Assembly: GCA_002304445.1 (NCBI GenBank)
Contig: NEVA01000007.1
Location: forward strand, 62,001-126,000
Origin: Opitutia bacterium Tous-C4FEB
Lineage (GTDB): Bacteria > Verrucomicrobiota > Verrucomicrobiia > Opitutales > Opitutaceae
Reading direction: 5' to 3'
Length of the DNA: 64,000 nucleotides
Of the stretch, positions 40,786 to 63,242 are shown piece by piece (positions within the stretch are counted from its first letter, which is position 1; the number at the start of each line of letters is the position of its first letter). Made by a program: the position numbers and the translations under genes. The notes under the pieces are model-generated. The model did no database searches and had not been told where the DNA came from. It worked only from the letters and a program-made list of their open reading frames with translations.

Positions 40786-41580
40786 TTAACGTAAAAGCTG
40801 TAGAGCGCTTTGAGCCGAACCGTTGGCTTGGGCGATCATCGACGTACCCGCTTGGACCAAGGTATTATAGCGAGCCAATCGCGTCGACTCTTCGGCGACA
40901 TCTACATCCATGATCCGGCTAATCGCCGACTCTTGGTTGATTTTGGCCGCAGACTGCAACTCTTGCTGGAAGCCTAATACGCTCTGTTTCGCTCCATTTT
41001 CCGCCCGAATTTCAGCGATTGTCTGGATAGCAGTTGTCGTAGTGGTGGCACCGCCAATCGTAAGTGCGTTAGCGCCTGAAATTGCCGTAAGCAAAGCTGC
41101 TGCCCCAAAAGCCACAGAATCCGTGGAAGTGACGAGATTGTCGTTGATAGAAACAGTCAAGGCGGACCCAAACAGGCTTCTCGTATTCACCGCATCGTCC
41201 GTCATTGCTAGCAAGCTAGTATTTAGGGCAGTGAACTCCGTGGAATAAAGATTAATATCTGCCGCGGCCTTGGTCGGGTCGGCATAGAGGGCTTGGAGTT
41301 CGCTCATGCGCTCCAAAACCTTACTGACCGTTTTCAGGGCGGAATCTTGCTGTTGGAGGAACGACAGAGCGTTGCCGATGTTGGCGGAGACTACCCCAGT
41401 GCGCTTGGCAGCGGCACCGAGACGGCCAGCCACAGCGACGCCACCGGCATCATCCGAAGCGTTTACAATTTTGCTGCCGCTCGAGAGCCGATTAAGGCTC
41501 TTTTGCAGCATAGCATTCGAAGCGGAGAGATTGCTTGAGGCAATCGACGCCGCTGTATTGGTATTAATAATAACTGACAT
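40786..41580 (-). CDS. fliC: Flagellin 1
   Basis: 264 residues from the ATG at 41580, chosen over an upstream start at 41646 because MSVIINTNTAA is the classical flagellin start and an AAGGAAG lies 7 nt before it. The N-terminal D0/D1 helices are typical (LQKSLNRLSSGSKIVNASDD) and the C-terminal ones are VAEESTRLARYNTLVQAGTS and NGSAQSALQLLR. The middle is short, so the filament surface domains D2/D3 are missing or minimal. It is very similar to flagellin 2 (41966-42766). A leader hairpin with an ACGGA loop precedes it, suggesting CsrA control. Confidence 0.95.
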   Translation of the reverse strand: MSVIINTNTAASIASSNLSASNAMLQKSLNRLSSGSKIVNASDDAGGVAVAGRLGAAAKRTGVVSANIGNALSFLQQQDSALKTVSKVLERMSELQALYADPTKAAADINLYSTEFTALNTSLLAMTDDAVNTRSLFGSALTVSINDNLVTSTDSVAFGAAALLTAISGANALTIGGATTTTTAIQTIAEIRAENGAKQSVLGFQQELQSAAKINQESAISRIMDVDVAEESTRLARYNTLVQAGTSMIAQANGSAQSALQLLR

Positions 41581-41587
41581 ATGTTTA

Positions 41588-41619
41588 CTTCCTTGCTTAT
41601 ATGCAACGTCCGTCGTTGC
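41588..41619 (-). promoter_or_regulatory. Flagellin 1 leader: CsrA-type hairpin and Shine-Dalgarno
   Basis: The hairpin GCAACG-ACGGA-CGTTGC (41603-41619) presents GGA in the loop, then 8 nt, then CAAGGAAG (41588-41595), 7 nt before the ATG. CsrA dimers bind ANGGA motifs, preferably in loops. A second site overlapping the Shine-Dalgarno would block translation. Confidence 0.7.
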
Positions 41620-41670
41620 CCCGAATCGTCTTATGGAGACGATCAATCCAACTGAGATCGAGAAATCTCA

Positions 41671-41690
41671 AGGTTATACCAACGCGAACT
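41671..41690 (-). promoter_or_regulatory. Motif shared by flagellin 1 and 2 upstream regions
   Basis: The minus strand reads AGTTCGCGTTGGTATAACCT about 95 nt before the ATG. A closely similar stretch (CTCGCGTTGGTTATCTC, 42863-42879) lies at a similar distance from the flagellin 2 ATG. It could contain a promoter -10 (TATAAC), but no convincing sigma-28 consensus is visible. Confidence 0.35.
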
Positions 41691-41820
41691 GCGAAAGTGA
41701 TAACGCGGTGCTCTAGCTCGCCGTAGACCCCCAAGTGGAACCGAAGTCCTCGCGCGGGATTTGATTCTTCAGATCGCTGGAGCCAATGACTCTTCCGCTT
41801 AAACAATCCCATATACACAA

Positions 41821-41879
41821 GCCTCCGCCTCGGCCCGGAGTGGACCGGGGCCAAGGCGGCTTTTATCGAAGATAAAAGC
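41821..41879 (-). terminator. Hairpin pair after flagellin gene 2
   Basis: Two consecutive hairpins about 90-145 bp past the flagellin 2 stop: gcttttatc-gaa-gataaaagc (41859-41879) and a long GC-rich stem (41821-41860). On the minus strand a short T-containing stretch follows. Likely the terminator of flagellin 2. Confidence 0.5.
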
Positions 41880-41965
41880 GAGGTAGGCATAGAATGATAC
41901 ATGCTGGTAGATACTTCGCCTAAATAGGAGAGTAGCTAAGAGGTGATGATATCTAGTTTTCGGAA

Positions 41966-42766
41966 TTAGCCGCGGAGGAGCTGCAGGGCCGACTGCGTGC
42001 TTTGGTTGGCCTGGGCGACCATGGAGGTGCCGGCTTGGACCAAGGTGTTGTAGCGGGCTAGCTGGGTAGATTCCTCGGCTACATCGACATCCATGATCCG
42101 ACTGATCGCCGCATCCATGTTTATGCGATTGGCACCAAGCATCTCTTGCTGGAAGCCTAATACACTCTGTTTAGCGCCGTTTTCCGCGCGCTGTCCGGCT
42201 ATCGTCTGAATTGCCGTGTTGAGGTTGCTTACTTGATCAATAACAAGGCTCGATCCGGCAGTACCGATCGCGGAGCCTAGATTGGCCAACCCAAAAGCTA
42301 CGGCATCGGTAGTGCTGAGCTGGTCGTTCACCGAGACGCTCATGGCGGCGGTGGCGAAGATATCTAGAGTGTTGACCTTGTCATCGGTCATGGCCACTAG
42401 GCTGGTCTTCAAAGCAGAAAACTCCGTGCCATACAGCGCGGTGTCACTTGTAGATTTGGTTGGGTCGGCATACAGCGCTTGGAGCTCGCTCATCCGCTCT
42501 AAGATTTTACCCACCGTTTTGAGGGCGGAGTCTTGGTGCTGGAGGAACGACACGGCGTTACCGACGTTAGCCGAGACAACGGCGGAACGCTTGGAGGCTG
42601 CCGCTAGGCGTGAAGCCACGGCAACGCCACCGGCATCATCCGAGGCGTTTACAATTTTGCTACCGCTCGACAGCCGATTAAGGCTGCGCTGCAGCATAGC
42701 ATTCGACGCGGCTAGATTGTTTGAGGCAATCGACGCCGCGGTGTTGGTATTAATGACTACTGGCAT
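41966..42766 (-). CDS. Flagellin 2
   Basis: 266 residues. N-terminus MPVVINTNTAASIASNNLAA and C-terminus QANQSTQSALQLLRG are classical D0 helices. The sequence is nearly identical to flagellin 1 through the first 110 and last 90 residues and differs mainly in a short central part (about 140-180). No D2/D3 domain. Its own leader hairpin with ACGGA loop and AAGGAAG Shine-Dalgarno precede the ATG, and it lies 385 bp upstream of flagellin 1 in the same direction, so it is a separate transcription unit. Ser/Thr-rich centre offers possible O-glycosylation sites. Confidence 0.95.
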   Translation of the reverse strand: MPVVINTNTAASIASNNLAASNAMLQRSLNRLSSGSKIVNASDDAGGVAVASRLAAASKRSAVVSANVGNAVSFLQHQDSALKTVGKILERMSELQALYADPTKSTSDTALYGTEFSALKTSLVAMTDDKVNTLDIFATAAMSVSVNDQLSTTDAVAFGLANLGSAIGTAGSSLVIDQVSNLNTAIQTIAGQRAENGAKQSVLGFQQEMLGANRINMDAAISRIMDVDVAEESTQLARYNTLVQAGTSMVAQANQSTQSALQLLRG

Positions 42767-42775
42767 GGTACTATT

Positions 42776-42806
42776 CTTCCTTGTTTGATACGACGTCCGT
42801 CGTCGT
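42776..42806 (-). promoter_or_regulatory. Flagellin 2 leader: CsrA-type hairpin and Shine-Dalgarno
   Basis: The hairpin ACGACG-ACGGA-CGTCGT (42790-42806), then 7 nt, then CAAGGAAG at 42776-42783, 9 nt before the ATG. Same loop as the flagellin 1 leader, different stem sequence. Confidence 0.7.
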
Positions 42807-42983
42807 CACGAATAGCCGAAGTCGGTGGCTATCACTCCGTGTGCGGAGCAATCCGCAAAAGTGAGATAACCAACGCGAGAGGAACACTTACCCTGATAGA
42901 AACTACACTGAATACATAAGCCTTACGCGTGAGTGCGTAGGATAGAATCAGTGGTGATCATGACTTTTTCGAAGTGCCATGAT

Positions 42984-43337
42984 CTGCAGGGGGGACAGTT
43001 TAACGATTTAGCATAAGTAGAAAATGTGTTGGGCGAGGGCTTCTGAGCCGATGACTATAGACTCGACTTGGGCGACTACCCTTCGTGAGAGCAGGTCCGT
43101 TGGAGAACACCCGAGACGGGTAGCAGCGCAGGCAGGCCGGTTCGGGTTAACCGTTTTGGCGGAAAGGCCGGGCGGTCGGTTTTAATGAGGCAGCACCGGG
43201 AGAGTGCCGCACCGGCCAGGGGGGCCGGCGATGGTGGATGTGCGCAGCCCTGACCGCACCTAGCCGGGTGTCGGTTAGGTAACAGTCAGGGACGGGGCGA
43301 GTCGCCGATGAGCGACTCATCACTCTGCGGGTCGAGC
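42984..43337. other. Hairpin-rich region between flagellins 2 and 3
   Basis: No gene is supported. The region contains several GC hairpins: ccctgac / gtcaggg (about 43247-43290), ccggcc-agggg-ggccgg near 43211-43227, cggtt / aaccg near 43140-43155 and gagtcgc / gcgactc (43299-43318). The last one lies 20 bp past the flagellin 3 stop and may terminate it. The rest could be an RNA element or merely GC-rich spacer. Confidence 0.35.
43299..43318 (-). terminator. Hairpin after flagellin gene 3
   Basis: Stem gagtcgc / gcgactc with a 6-nt loop, 20 bp past the flagellin 3 stop. There is no clear T-run, so its terminator role is uncertain. Confidence 0.4.
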
Positions 43338-44156
43338 TTACTGACCGATCAGCTTCAGCACGAGGGAGGTGGACTGATTGGCTTGGGCGAGCATGGCGCT
43401 GCCGGCCTGCGTGAGCGTCGTCCATTTAGCGAGCGCGGTAGACTCCTCCGCCACATCAACATCGGTGATTCGTCCCGTTGCTGCCTCCAGGTTGATCTTG
43501 TTGAGGGAGAGCAGCTCGGCGGCGAAGTTGAGGCCATTTTGCTCGGCACCGTTATTGGCCCGGTATTCAGCCAACTTGTCTTGGGCGTCGGTGATCGCTG
43601 CGTTCAGCGTGGTCGACGAGCTAAGCGCCGAGATGCTGATCAACAAGCCGATCGGCTCAGTGGTTCCGCTGTTCATCGCCTTGCCGGAGATGTCGAGCGT
43701 TTGATCACCGTTAGCATTTACAATGATGCTGGTGCTGCTGGAGGCAAACATCGGTACGCCGTTGAACGTTTCGTTAGAAACGTTATCGAGCTGGGTTTGC
43801 AGCGCCTTAAACTCGATATTGTAAAGAGCCTTGTCGTCGCTGTTTTTGGTGGCGTCGTTATACAGACTGTGCAGCTCGGCCATACGCTCAACAATTTTGC
43901 CAGCAATTTTGATCGCGCCGTCCTGATTTTGCAGGAGCGAAACCGCATTCTGGATGTTGATACCGGCTGAACCGGAACGTTTGGCCTGAGCCGAGAGGCG
44001 CATGGATACAGCGACACCGCCCGCATCGTCGGATGGGCTCACTAAACGTGAACCGCTCGACAAGCGATTGAGGCTCCGCTGGAGCATGCTCTGAGAAAGA
44101 CCGAGGTTATTCGCAGCGGCAGAAGCCGCGTAGTTAGTATTGATTGAGACGGGCAT
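43338..44156 (-). CDS. Flagellin 3 (divergent)
   Basis: 272 residues. Flagellin D0/D1 ends are clear (MPVSINTNYAASAAANNLGL, LNRLSSGSRLVSPSDDAGGV at the start; VAEESTALAKWTTLTQAGSA and TSLVLKLIGQ at the end). It differs from flagellins 1 and 2 throughout, including IVNANGDQTLDISGK in the middle. Several flagellins of different sequence in one cell often form distinct filament zones. It is the upstream-most flagellin in the row and carries its own leader hairpin with ACGGA and an AAGGAAG Shine-Dalgarno. Confidence 0.95.
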   Translation of the reverse strand: MPVSINTNYAASAAANNLGLSQSMLQRSLNRLSSGSRLVSPSDDAGGVAVSMRLSAQAKRSGSAGINIQNAVSLLQNQDGAIKIAGKIVERMAELHSLYNDATKNSDDKALYNIEFKALQTQLDNVSNETFNGVPMFASSSTSIIVNANGDQTLDISGKAMNSGTTEPIGLLISISALSSSTTLNAAITDAQDKLAEYRANNGAEQNGLNFAAELLSLNKINLEAATGRITDVDVAEESTALAKWTTLTQAGSAMLAQANQSTSLVLKLIGQ

Positions 44157-44162
44157 GGGAGT

Positions 44163-44194
44163 TCTTCCTTGATTCTAATACACTGTCCGTAGTG
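44163..44194 (-). promoter_or_regulatory. Flagellin 3 leader: CsrA-type hairpin and Shine-Dalgarno
   Basis: The hairpin CACT-ACGGAC-AGTG (44181-44194; a G-U pair can extend it), then 10 nt, then CAAGGAAG (44164-44171), 7 nt before the ATG. The ACGGA loop and CAAGGAAG are identical to the other two leaders although the coding sequence is diverged. Confidence 0.65.
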
Positions 44195-44865
44195 CGACGT
44201 GTCCGAGGGAAGCTTCGGGACCGAACTATCAACGATGTGAACCGCCGATGCAGATAGATACGTCGCACCGTAGAATAACTTTAGAATTATTTAATGATTT
44301 CAGGCTCGAAATCACTTTGTCCCCCGGGGCCAGAGCAGAATCCCCACTAGCCGCCCCACCCTCTCTTATCGTATCAAACTATTATTTTCACTTTTTCCTT
44401 AATATCATCCCGACGCGGCCGTAGCGCCCTAGGCGGCGGGTTATCTCGAGCCGGGTAGTAATCGATGGGAAATGCTGCGTTCCCGGTGGTGCAAAACTTG
44501 AATGCGCCCTCTCCCGAGGCAGTTTTGCCCGCTAATTTTCGCTGATTCCCGCTAATTTATGGAGCCGAGCAGAAGCGCGCCAACCCTAACCTCTGTGATT
44601 GCCGCTCCGCGCGGGAGAAGGCGTGGTCGCGCGTGGTCAGTGAACTGAGGCCCCAGTACGCCAAGGCGTTGACCAGTTTTGCCACGTGATTAGCTGCGGA
44701 AACTACTACGCAGAGGTATTCGCGAGCGATAGGTCACCGGCGGGGTTAAATGCCTGGGCGCGGTGTGCTGCGAGAAAACGGAATGAAAGGTACACGGCTA
44801 CGTTGACATGCGGAATCATTACCACGTGGCTTGACCAGCTGCCTCAAAGCGATTGTATTATACAT
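44195..44865. other. Intergenic region upstream of flagellin 3 and the RelB-like gene
   Basis: About 670 bp. It holds the remaining flagellin 3 leader and promoter, an AT-rich block (44270-44400) and an inverted copy of the 'attagcgggaa' repeat (44528-44560). Open frames extending upstream of the RelB-like ATG have no family resemblance. Confidence 0.55.
44528..44560 (-). repeat. 'attagcgggaatcagcgaaaa' repeat, copy 2
   Basis: Inverted copy of the repeat at 13212-13242, next to the second accessory stretch. Function unknown. Confidence 0.5.
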
Positions 44866-52120: not shown

Positions 52121-52393
52121 TCAGTTGCTGCCGGGGACCGACGAAGGGGCCGCCGGTTTGGGCGCCAACATCGGCATCGCCAATTTGGGCAGCGTGAACT
52201 TCGGAGCGACGGCCATGCCGGCGCCACGGTTGCTCCGGGCGAGATCGGTCAAGACCTCTTTCCGTACGATCGAAATTTCGCGCGGTGCGGCGATCCCGAG
52301 TTTCACCAGATCGCCTTCGATCCGAGAGATGAAAATCTCGATGTTGCCACCGATCACGATGCATTCGTTAACCCTACGAGATAGAACCAACAT
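52121..52393 (-). CDS. csrA: Translational regulator CsrA with C-terminal extension
   Basis: 90 residues; the canonical core is about 55-60. The N-terminus ([20 protein letters not shown]) and R44 ([13 protein letters not shown]) carry the RNA-binding residues. The tail (56-90) is Pro/Ala-rich ([18 protein letters not shown]). In bacteria where FliW controls CsrA, a C-terminal CsrA extension contacts FliW, and this tail fits that pattern. CsrA represses translation by binding GGA in mRNA leaders. The three flagellin leaders here each have two such motifs. It starts 4 bp after fliW. Confidence 0.95.
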
Positions 52394-52397
52394 GGTA

Positions 52398-52856
52398 TTA
52401 TGCCTCCCCCAAGATGTATGGGGCGCGGTAGCCCATGTAGTTGGAAATCACGACCTGCTTCGCTTGCAGGGTGCGGCGGTTGACCACGATCGGGCCGGTG
52501 AGGTTCACGCTCGCGCTGGCCGGGACGGTGTCGCGCAGGGTGACGATGTTGAGCACGAAAGCATCGCCGGAGGCGCTGATTTCGAGTTCGTCGGCGTCTT
52601 GGTCAAACAACTCGGGGTTGTAGTTTTTAACAAAGCCGTTGGGCTCGATCACCAGGAAGTTGATCGGTTCGGCGAGGCCTTCGAAGCTGAGCCACATAAA
52701 GGGCTCCTGATCGGGCAATTTTTGCAGGGTAGCAACCTTCGCGTCCGGCAAACCCACGAGCCCCTGGGGGAACTCGAGTTTGAGCGGCAGCTCCAGTTGA
52801 CCGGTGTCCACCGTGTAACTCACGGCGCCATACGTCTGTTCGGTTTGCATTAACAT
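52398..52856 (-). CDS. fliW: Flagellar assembly factor FliW
   Basis: 152 residues, normal FliW size. The pattern [20 protein letters not shown] near the N-terminus, [20 protein letters not shown] and [20 protein letters not shown] in the middle and [19 protein letters not shown] at the end are family hallmarks. FliW binds flagellin or CsrA alternatively and sequesters CsrA when free flagellin is low in the cytoplasm, or releases it when flagellin accumulates. It is followed by csrA and preceded by flgL, the order found in many FliW-bearing bacteria. Confidence 0.95.
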
Positions 52857-52887: not shown

Positions 52888-53787
52888 TTATTTGAGGTAA
52901 TCGAGAAGCGAGAGCTTGAAGAGATTGGCCGTGGAGCTGAGCGCGGCTTGGTAAGAGGTTTGGGTCTCGGTGAGGCGAATCATCGAGGTGGCCATATCGG
53001 CATCGGTATCGCCGGAGATGAGGCGCTGCAGATCGCTGGCGCGGCTGGTGAGTTGAGCTTGGTTGGACTCGATGCGCGTCTGGACCGCGGCGACGGTGCC
53101 GATGGCGTTGATGAAGGTGTCTTCGTTGTCGGCCATCGTGGAATTCATGGCCACGACCGTGGTGTTGTCACCGGTGGCCAAGGCGTCGCGCAAGGTGACG
53201 ACGTTGTTCAGAAAGGCGGCGATTTCCGGGTTGGTTGTCGCGGCGCCCGGCGAGGGTGAGACGGCGCGGCCATCGCCCATGGGCACGGTGGCATCTTGAT
53301 CGTTGCCCACGTAGGCGACCGTGGTGATCGCGCCGGCGGTGTCACGCGTCGCCGTGTACGGCTGCGTATCAACGGCGGTCCCGGCAAAAATGTAGTCGGC
53401 GCCAAAGCGTGAGTTGGCGACGTTGGTGGCCTGCTCGAGCAGTTGCGAAACCTCCGCACCATAGGCAGCCATGCTTTGCGGACCGGCGCCGGCGGAGAGC
53501 GAGGTCAACTCGCTGATGCGGCTCGCGATTTTCTGCAGCTGCGTGAGCGCGGTGAGCGAGGACTCGGAACGCGATTTGGCCATCGACGCGGCGGACTGAT
53601 AATTGCCCACGCGCTCCGCTTCCATCTGGCGGTTGAGCACGCGACTGGTCGCGGCGGGGTCATCGCTGGGCTTGAGCAAGCGGCGACCGGTGGCGATGGT
53701 TTGATGCAGACGCGCCTGCTCTTCACTGAGTCGACGAAGATCGTTAATCGCCGTAGTGGTAACAAAATTAGTGGAAACGCGGAGCAT
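52888..53787 (-). CDS. flgL: Hook-filament junction protein FlgL
   Basis: 299 residues. FlgL joins hook and filament with FlgK. The N-terminal D0-like helix (MLRVSTNFVTTTAINDLRRL, then HQTIATGRRLLKPSDDPAAT) and the C-terminal helix (SMIRLTETQTSYQAALSSTA, then NLFKLSLLDYLK) are typical of the flagellin superfamily, with FlgL-type MAAYGAEVSQLLEQATNVAN in between. It lies 14 bp after the flgK stop and is followed by fliW, the conserved order. Complete. Confidence 0.94.
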   Translation of the reverse strand: MLRVSTNFVTTTAINDLRRLSEEQARLHQTIATGRRLLKPSDDPAATSRVLNRQMEAERVGNYQSAASMAKSRSESSLTALTQLQKIASRISELTSLSAGAGPQSMAAYGAEVSQLLEQATNVANSRFGADYIFAGTAVDTQPYTATRDTAGAITTVAYVGNDQDATVPMGDGRAVSPSPGAATTNPEIAAFLNNVVTLRDALATGDNTTVVAMNSTMADNEDTFINAIGTVAAVQTRIESNQAQLTSRASDLQRLISGDTDADMATSMIRLTETQTSYQAALSSTANLFKLSLLDYLK

Positions 53788-61805: not shown

Positions 61806-63242
61806 ATGAAACCACTGTTGCTGCTGCTTTTGGGGTTCCTTTTTGCCGTGATTGCCCCAGCCCAGATCGAGGGAGAATCCGCCGCCGAACTCATCAAACG
61901 CGCTGAACTTGGAGACGCCGTTGCCCGCGTAAAATTGAGCCTCATCCGCAGCGGCGGCGACAACCAGCTCGCCTCCGAAATCCAAACGGCCCGCTGGTAC
62001 CAAGAGGCCGTCGAACAAAATAACATCACGTCTCAATATAGTCTCGGCCTAATGTTTGAATCCGGCGTCGGCGCCACCAAAGACGCCGCCGAAGCCACCC
62101 GCTGGTTCCGCATGGCGGCTGAGCGCGGCAACAACGCCGCCCAATTCAAACTCGGCAACCACTACGCCGCCGGCGACGGCGTCGCCAAGAACCCGATCGA
62201 AGCCGCCCTCTGGTTTCGTCGAGCCGCCGAACAGGCCAACGTGGGCGCCCAACGCAACCTCGGCCTCATCCTCCTCAATGGCACCGGCGTCGCCAAAGAC
62301 ATCGCCCAAGCCGTCCAATGGCTCCGGAAAGCCGCCGAACAAGGCGACGTCACGAGCCAATACAACCTTGGCATCCTCTTCGGCAGCAAACTCGCCAAAA
62401 ACTCCTCCGATTCCGCCCGGTGGTACCGCAAAGCTGCCGAACAAGGTCTAGCCGCGGCCCAATTCCAACTCGCCCTACTTTGTGAGCGCGGCGAAGGCAC
62501 CACCAAAGACGCCGTCGAAACCGTCCAATGGCTCCAGAAAGCCGCCGAACAAGACCACGCCGAAGCTCAAACGCTCCTCGGCGAAAAATACGCCACCGGC
62601 GACGGGGTCCCAAAAGACAATACCGAAGCCGTCAAATGGTACCGCAAAGCTGCTGAACTCGGCAGCGTTTCGGCCCAATGTAATCTAGGCTTCATGTACG
62701 CCACCGGCGGGGGCGTCGAAAAAGACCCCGCCGAAGCCCTCATTTGGTTTCGCAAATCAGCCGAACTCGGCAACGCCATCGGCCAAGTCAACCTCGGTAT
62801 GCTCTACCAAACCGGCAACGCCATCGGCCAAGATTTCTTCGAAGCCGCCAAATGGTACCGCAAAGCTGCACTCCAAGGTAATGAGCTCGCCCAGTACAAC
62901 CTCGGCCTCCTGCACGATGCTGGGGCCGGCGTCCCCAAAGACAGCGTTGAAGCCGTTCGCTGGATCCGCATGGCCGCTGACCGGGGTCACGCTGCCGCCC
63001 AGACTAACCTCGGGGCCAAATACGCCACCGGCGACGGTATCCCTAAAGACCTGGTCGAAGCCCACGTCTGCTTCAACCTCGCCAGCGTCAAGGGCAACCC
63101 CACCGCCCAACGTAACATGGTGATGATCGAACGCGACATGACCCCCGATCAACGTGCCAAAGCCATGGAACTCGCCCGCAGCCGCTTCGCCGCCGCCACC
63201 AAGCCCGAGGTCAACGCCCCTTCCCCTCGCCCCGCCCCATGA
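61806..63242 (+). CDS. Secreted Sel1-repeat protein
   Basis: 478 residues with a signal peptide (MKPLLLLLLGFLFAVIAPAQ). The rest is about eleven Sel1-like repeats of some 36 residues, each of the form 'A...lG..y..G.GV.kd..eA..W.rkAAeqg', e.g. AAQFKLGNHYAAGDGVAKNP and AQYNLGLLHDAGAGVPKDSV. Such solenoids mediate protein-protein contacts in the periplasm or at the envelope. No catalytic motif. It stands 124 bp after the HDOD gene and converges with hisA; its function cannot be told from context. Confidence 0.87.
   Translation: MKPLLLLLLGFLFAVIAPAQIEGESAAELIKRAELGDAVARVKLSLIRSGGDNQLASEIQTARWYQEAVEQNNITSQYSLGLMFESGVGATKDAAEATRWFRMAAERGNNAAQFKLGNHYAAGDGVAKNPIEAALWFRRAAEQANVGAQRNLGLILLNGTGVAKDIAQAVQWLRKAAEQGDVTSQYNLGILFGSKLAKNSSDSARWYRKAAEQGLAAAQFQLALLCERGEGTTKDAVETVQWLQKAAEQDHAEAQTLLGEKYATGDGVPKDNTEAVKWYRKAAELGSVSAQCNLGFMYATGGGVEKDPAEALIWFRKSAELGNAIGQVNLGMLYQTGNAIGQDFFEAAKWYRKAALQGNELAQYNLGLLHDAGAGVPKDSVEAVRWIRMAADRGHAAAQTNLGAKYATGDGIPKDLVEAHVCFNLASVKGNPTAQRNMVMIERDMTPDQRAKAMELARSRFAAATKPEVNAPSPRPAP

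Follow-up and report, generated by a model that had tools for sequence, protein, structure and literature searches.

Predicted dual-site CsrA operators in the leaders of three tandem flagellin genes and of related flagellin genes in Opitutaceae

On the minus strand of the analysed stretch of 64,000 nucleotides of an Opitutaceae bacterium (the window, contig positions 62001–126000) three flagellin genes follow each other in tandem, all of them recognised by the Pfam domains Flagellin_N and Flagellin_C, and each gene is preceded by the same succession of elements: a hairpin whose loop contains ACGGA, the Shine–Dalgarno (SD) sequence CAAGGAAG and the ATG. We suggest that this arrangement is best explained by a dual-site CsrA operator which represses all three flagellins and from which repression is relieved by FliW, and we assign this explanation a probability of about 0.9. 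The first site would be the ANGGA hairpin ∼33 nt before the start codon and the second site the sequence CA(A)GGA(A)G, which is also the SD sequence. A single CsrA dimer would bind with one face to the hairpin and with the other face to the SD sequence and so keep the ribosome off. FliW, whose gene lies directly before csrA, would bind CsrA during flagellin export and free the mRNA, and accumulating flagellin would in turn hold FliW. A single CsrA/FliW pair could in this manner co-ordinate all three flagellins. Binding of CsrA, repression and the relief by FliW are proposed for the three leaders by analogy to the systems compared at the end of this text.

All features given here are on the minus strand. 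The first gene, fla1 (40786–41580, ATG at 41578–41580), codes for a flagellin of 264 aa with Flagellin_N and Flagellin_C domains. Its hairpin GCAACG-ACGGA-CGTTGC, the predicted CsrA site 1, is located at 41603–41619 (sequence, fold, rarity) and its SD sequence CAAGGAAG (CANGGANG), the predicted site 2, at 41588–41595 (sequence, pattern search). The hairpin belongs to a longer-loop type, in which a C-G closing pair leaves either a 7-nt loop GACGGAC or a 5-nt loop ACGGA. The second gene, fla2 (41966–42766, 266 aa, Pfam; ATG at 42764–42766), is a paralogue of fla1 with 75% identity; its predicted site 1, ACGACG-ACGGA-CGTCGT, lies at 42790–42806 and its predicted site 2, CAAGGAAG (ACAAGGAAGA), at 42776–42783, both based on the same types of evidence as in fla1. 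The third gene, fla3 (43338–44156, 272 aa, Pfam; ATG at 44154–44156), codes for a divergent flagellin which is 52% identical to fla2. Here the predicted site 1 is the hairpin GCACU-ACGGAC-AGUGU at 44180–44195 (sequence, fold, covariance model) with five pairs, the outer one being G-U, and a canonical ANGGAN hexaloop; the predicted site 2, CAAGGAAG (UCAAGGAAGA), is found at 44164–44171 (sequence, pattern search).

Thus, the hairpin with the ACGGA loop and the CAAGGAAG SD sequence reported in the initial annotation are present in all three flagellin leaders, and the distance between SD sequence and ATG (7, 9, and 7 nt for fla1, fla2, and fla3) agrees with the 7–9 nt given there. The hairpin is in fact somewhat closer to the SD sequence than the 7–10 nt stated previously, the gaps being 7, 6, and 8 nt. 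The GGA motifs of the two sites are 19, 18, and 20 nt apart, and because of this distance of 18–20 nt hairpin and SD sequence could be bridged by one CsrA dimer.

Further upstream, the longer-loop flagellins have two more conserved and covarying hairpins ahead of the predicted CsrA hairpin, as seen in the alignment and for fla1 and fla2, so that their leader would comprise three hairpins; in fla1 a further upstream hairpin is located at 41625–41643. A sigma-28-like promoter candidate (CTAAAGTTA...GACGTAT, consensus match) is found for fla3 at 44250–44284, and the motif [CT]TAAAG recurs approximately at −122 to −135 ahead of the fla3-type flagellins of relatives. Among the three flagellins a promoter of the sigma-28 type is convincing solely for the fla3 type.

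The relatives used for comparison are Opitutaceae and Opitutales (Verrucomicrobiota), the family being shown by named records. We compiled 157 Opitutales leaders, mostly of flagellins, together with a few other genes and a csrA-linked class as built-in negatives. A GGA motif at −50 to −24 is present in 143 of these leaders, and in 136 of the 143 the GGA is in the loop of a stem with 4 bp or more; among dinucleotide shuffles which keep a GGA, 29% form such a stem. Without any structure filter, the upstream GGA (−46 to −26) and the GGA in the SD zone are each found in 108 of 108 Opitutaceae-type leaders and a stem of at least 5 bp in 97 of them, compared with a background of 1.7% (10 of 583 other ANGGA sites in the loci of the relatives lie in such a stem). 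For the other flagellins (n = 38), likewise unfiltered, the corresponding counts are 32 for the upstream GGA, 37 for the SD GGA and 24 for the stem. All three elements are absent from the csrA-linked MSVINTN flagellin class (7/7). Strong covariance-model matches in the related genomes are located before flagellins. Close relatives, in which the initial annotation would have taken absence of the hairpin as a refutation, do have it.

The flagellins of the class beginning with MSVINTNIQ are encoded directly downstream of fliW–csrA in several genomes. A few covariance-model matches extend beyond the order: in other orders and classes of the phylum, hairpins of the same form are found ahead of genes of flagellin-like proteins (three leaders), for example GACTGCAC-AGGGAC-GTGCAGTC in one of these leaders. 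In three leaders of marine Opitutales the stem is kept and the loop reads AUGAA, AAGAA, or AUGAU, so that the loop GGA is lost and the SD GGA is kept; this change of the loop is possibly an escape from CsrA.

The pairing of the stem is maintained while its sequence changes. The helix score is 0.512 in a plain MAFFT alignment that comprises 51 diverse leaders, compared with 0.207 after shuffling, and it is at most 0.20 once the helix is slid by one column. In the alignment of 39 hexaloop leaders 89.7% of the cells pair, a percentage which is inflated because members of the alignment sets were chosen for GGA and stem (few leaders were dropped by this rule), the unfiltered tallies given above being the fair figure. 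The same alignment has 65 doubly changed cells as compared with 18 after shuffling (0/500 shuffles), whereby the shuffle controls for covariation take no account of the relatedness among the leaders. About 40 distinct 5-bp stems occur among the leaders with the GGA being kept. The genes fla1 and fla2 are members of the longer-loop subtype, which exhibits the same covariation on a smaller scale and whose hairpin RNAalifold recovers unaided. The previous claim that the stems covary around a constant loop is thin when restricted to the three leaders of the window, as fla1 and fla2 are paralogues with 75% identity, and becomes strong once the relatives are added.

The conserved elements can be compared with known CsrA sites. 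The SELEX consensus is RUACARGGAUGU and an ANGGAN hexaloop constitutes the high-affinity site of CsrA/RsmE (PMC7652899). The consensus of the 39 leaders is likewise an ANGGAN hexaloop with a C-G closing pair, and fla3 and most relatives have the ANGGAN hexaloop. Many relatives also match CANGGANG: the SD region fits [AU]CANGGANG[AU] in 91 of 146 leaders, whereas the plain strong SD sequence AAGGAGG occurs in only 19. Across the Opitutales the SD-overlapping CANGGA and the loop GGA are both kept and the stems change by compensatory substitution. The distance between the two GGA motifs in the relatives is mostly 18–22 nt with a minimum of 18 nt. This lower limit and range fit one CsrA dimer, for which 18 nt is quoted as the best site spacing (PMC4894983). 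In contrast to the high-affinity hairpins, the ACGGA of fla1 and fla2 is preceded by a G, which gives a loop of 5 or 7 nt. Extra loop bases can lower the affinity for CsrA (PMC7652899), and the departure of these two loops from the optimal hexaloop is a point against the CsrA reading. Taken together, loop GGA, SD site, spacing, covarying stems and the presence of csrA beside fliW support the earlier prediction, on the level of sequence comparison, that the flagellin leaders are CsrA targets.

Alternatively, the hairpin might be a conserved 5′ structure that shields the mRNA against degradation or holds the SD sequence open, the GGA in its loop being incidental. The two further covarying hairpins upstream, which show that structure is a feature of the leader anyway, are in favor of such a role. 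However, a protective or SD-opening structure needs neither an invariant GGA loop nor a fixed distance of 18–22 nt to the SD sequence nor an SD sequence of the CANGGANG type, and it is the stems that vary freely whereas the loop is constant. We therefore consider this explanation improbable.

The dual-site operator further requires CsrA and FliW. Directly downstream of fliW we found a csrA gene at 52121–52393 which was absent from the initial annotation and which is the sole csrA found in the genome. The protein of 90 aa scores 72.6 bits with PF02599 (cut-off 27) and, with the NCBIfam equivalog model, 67.4, which is just below the cut-off of 70.1. It aligns gap-free to the first 50 residues of E. 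coli CsrA and has L4, R6, and R44, which we take to be the RNA-contact residues. A structure search places the CsrA chain of the FliW–CsrA complex 5dmb among its best neighbours. The gene previously assigned as fliW at 52398–52856 indeed codes for FliW (152 aa, 89.1 bits with PF02623), and the closest solved structure is the FliW chain of the same complex. Upstream of fliW lies a gene of a flgL-type hook-associated protein (52888–53787, Pfam) whose leader has no hairpin and serves as an internal negative control.

Of 252 Opitutaceae genomes 127 have both csrA and fliW, one has csrA alone and two have fliW alone. csrA is accompanied by flagellin in 123 genomes, flagellin only is found in 15, csrA only in five and neither in 109; the association of csrA and flagellin has a Fisher p of 2e-47, uncorrected for relatedness. 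A strict co-loss of hairpin and csrA was also considered and the picture is mixed: in one 98% complete genome lacking csrA and fliW (G284) the upstream GGA hairpin before the flagellin is lost, and the hairpin is kept in six other drafts lacking both genes, that is, in most of the csrA-lacking drafts examined. As all seven are draft genomes, the absence of csrA and fliW may be due to missing genes. In another genome the hairpin is lost in one of three flagellin leaders.

The hairpin is rare in the window as well as in the genome. The window contains 344 ANGGA sites when both strands are counted. Seven of them are enclosed as loop sequence by a stem of 5 bp or more, among them those of the three flagellin leaders; if only Watson–Crick pairs are allowed, two ANGGA sites remain, each of them in a flagellin leader. 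The pattern ACGGA-N8-30-AAGGA-N4-12-ATG matches the genome 14 times and the pattern CAAGGAAG-N4-10-ATG 11 times, and in both searches the flagellins account for three of the matches. We also searched the 3.76-Mb genome with a covariance model trained on the 39 hexaloop leaders. The top three matches are fla3 (E 8e-12), the score of which is not independent as fla3 is part of the training set, and fla2 and fla1 (2e-3 each), which are both outside of the training set. Those of the weak model and pattern matches elsewhere in the genome that were examined for other CsrA targets proved to be within coding regions or ahead of very small ORFs, and none is claimed. No Rfam family reaches its gathering score in the window.

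This scarcity bears on another explanation, namely that CsrA is bound mainly for titration or to set mRNA location or stability, the abundant leaders acting as a sponge like that described for flaA of C. jejuni. Three leaders of the high-affinity type on presumably abundant mRNAs together with few other candidate sites in the genome would suit a sponge, a role which is documented for flaA (PMC4894983) and is compatible with translational repression. On the other hand, the second site always covers the SD sequence, an arrangement from which direct translational repression is predicted, and the matches examined include no further CsrA target for a sponge to regulate. As the main function of the leaders we regard titration as unlikely, marginally more so than the protective structure.

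The folding of the leaders proposed in the initial annotation gave a divided result. When the 47-nt leaders are folded alone, ACGGA is in a loop in all three; in folds of 81–85 nt the hairpin is part of the minimum free energy structure for fla2 only, it is present in the centroid of fla1, and fla3 prefers another fold. In comparison with shuffles the fold energies of the three leaders do not stand out (z −1.8 to +1.2), and the case for the dual-site CsrA operator is therefore built on position and comparison and not on energy. The ordinary energies and the close relation of fla1 and fla2 might suggest a chance hairpin in three related leaders, but its rarity in window and genome and its conservation with covariation across the order already refute this, and we give chance practically no weight.

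In the Opitutaceae csrA is found almost only with flagella and nearly always beside fliW. It is conceivable, and we advance this tentatively, that CsrA is a single-purpose flagellin regulator in this family, with a direct regulon that consists of the flagellin leaders alone. If this is true, the flagellar checkpoint would have been preserved here as the original role of CsrA, and global carbon regulation would have been added later elsewhere. As csrA is seemingly tied to flagella alone, the Opitutaceae allow the idea of an ancestral flagellin homeostasis to be tested directly. The leaders described here place a CsrA–FliW–flagellin checkpoint in the Verrucomicrobiota on sequence-level evidence, show one kind of predicted operator common to several flagellin paralogues and supply a large covarying collection of natural CsrA-type hairpins. 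As flagellated relatives share both predicted operator sites, it is probable that flagellin production is limited in these cells in the same way as in Bacillus and Campylobacter.

A literature search of open-licence papers did not find CsrA control of flagellin in Verrucomicrobiota, and the operator of the hag/flaA kind, a known design, is apparently undescribed so far in this phylum. The closest known system is flaA of C. jejuni (PMC4894983). There, as here, two ANGGA motifs are present, the first in the loop of an upstream hairpin and the second over the ribosome-binding site, compensatory changes of the stem are seen among species, and both csrA and fliW are encoded; the spacing is 21 nt and flagellin is the main target. 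The GGA motifs of flaA have been mutated and footprinted, and binding of CsrA was shown (PMC4894983), whereas for the Opitutaceae leaders binding is predicted. In the 45-nt leader of flaA both GGA motifs are in hairpin loops, in contrast to the largely open SD site of the leaders described here, which also have two additional conserved hairpins upstream. The hag leader of B. subtilis, as far as summarised in PMC7652899 from Yakhnin 2007 and Mukherjee 2011, has two CsrA sites, one of them over the SD sequence, and FliW antagonises CsrA. According to this summary the two-site leader and the design of flagellin homeostasis are the same; B. subtilis, however, belongs to another phylum and has one flagellin under experimentally tested control, whereas in the genome studied here the same kind of operator is predicted for three flagellins.
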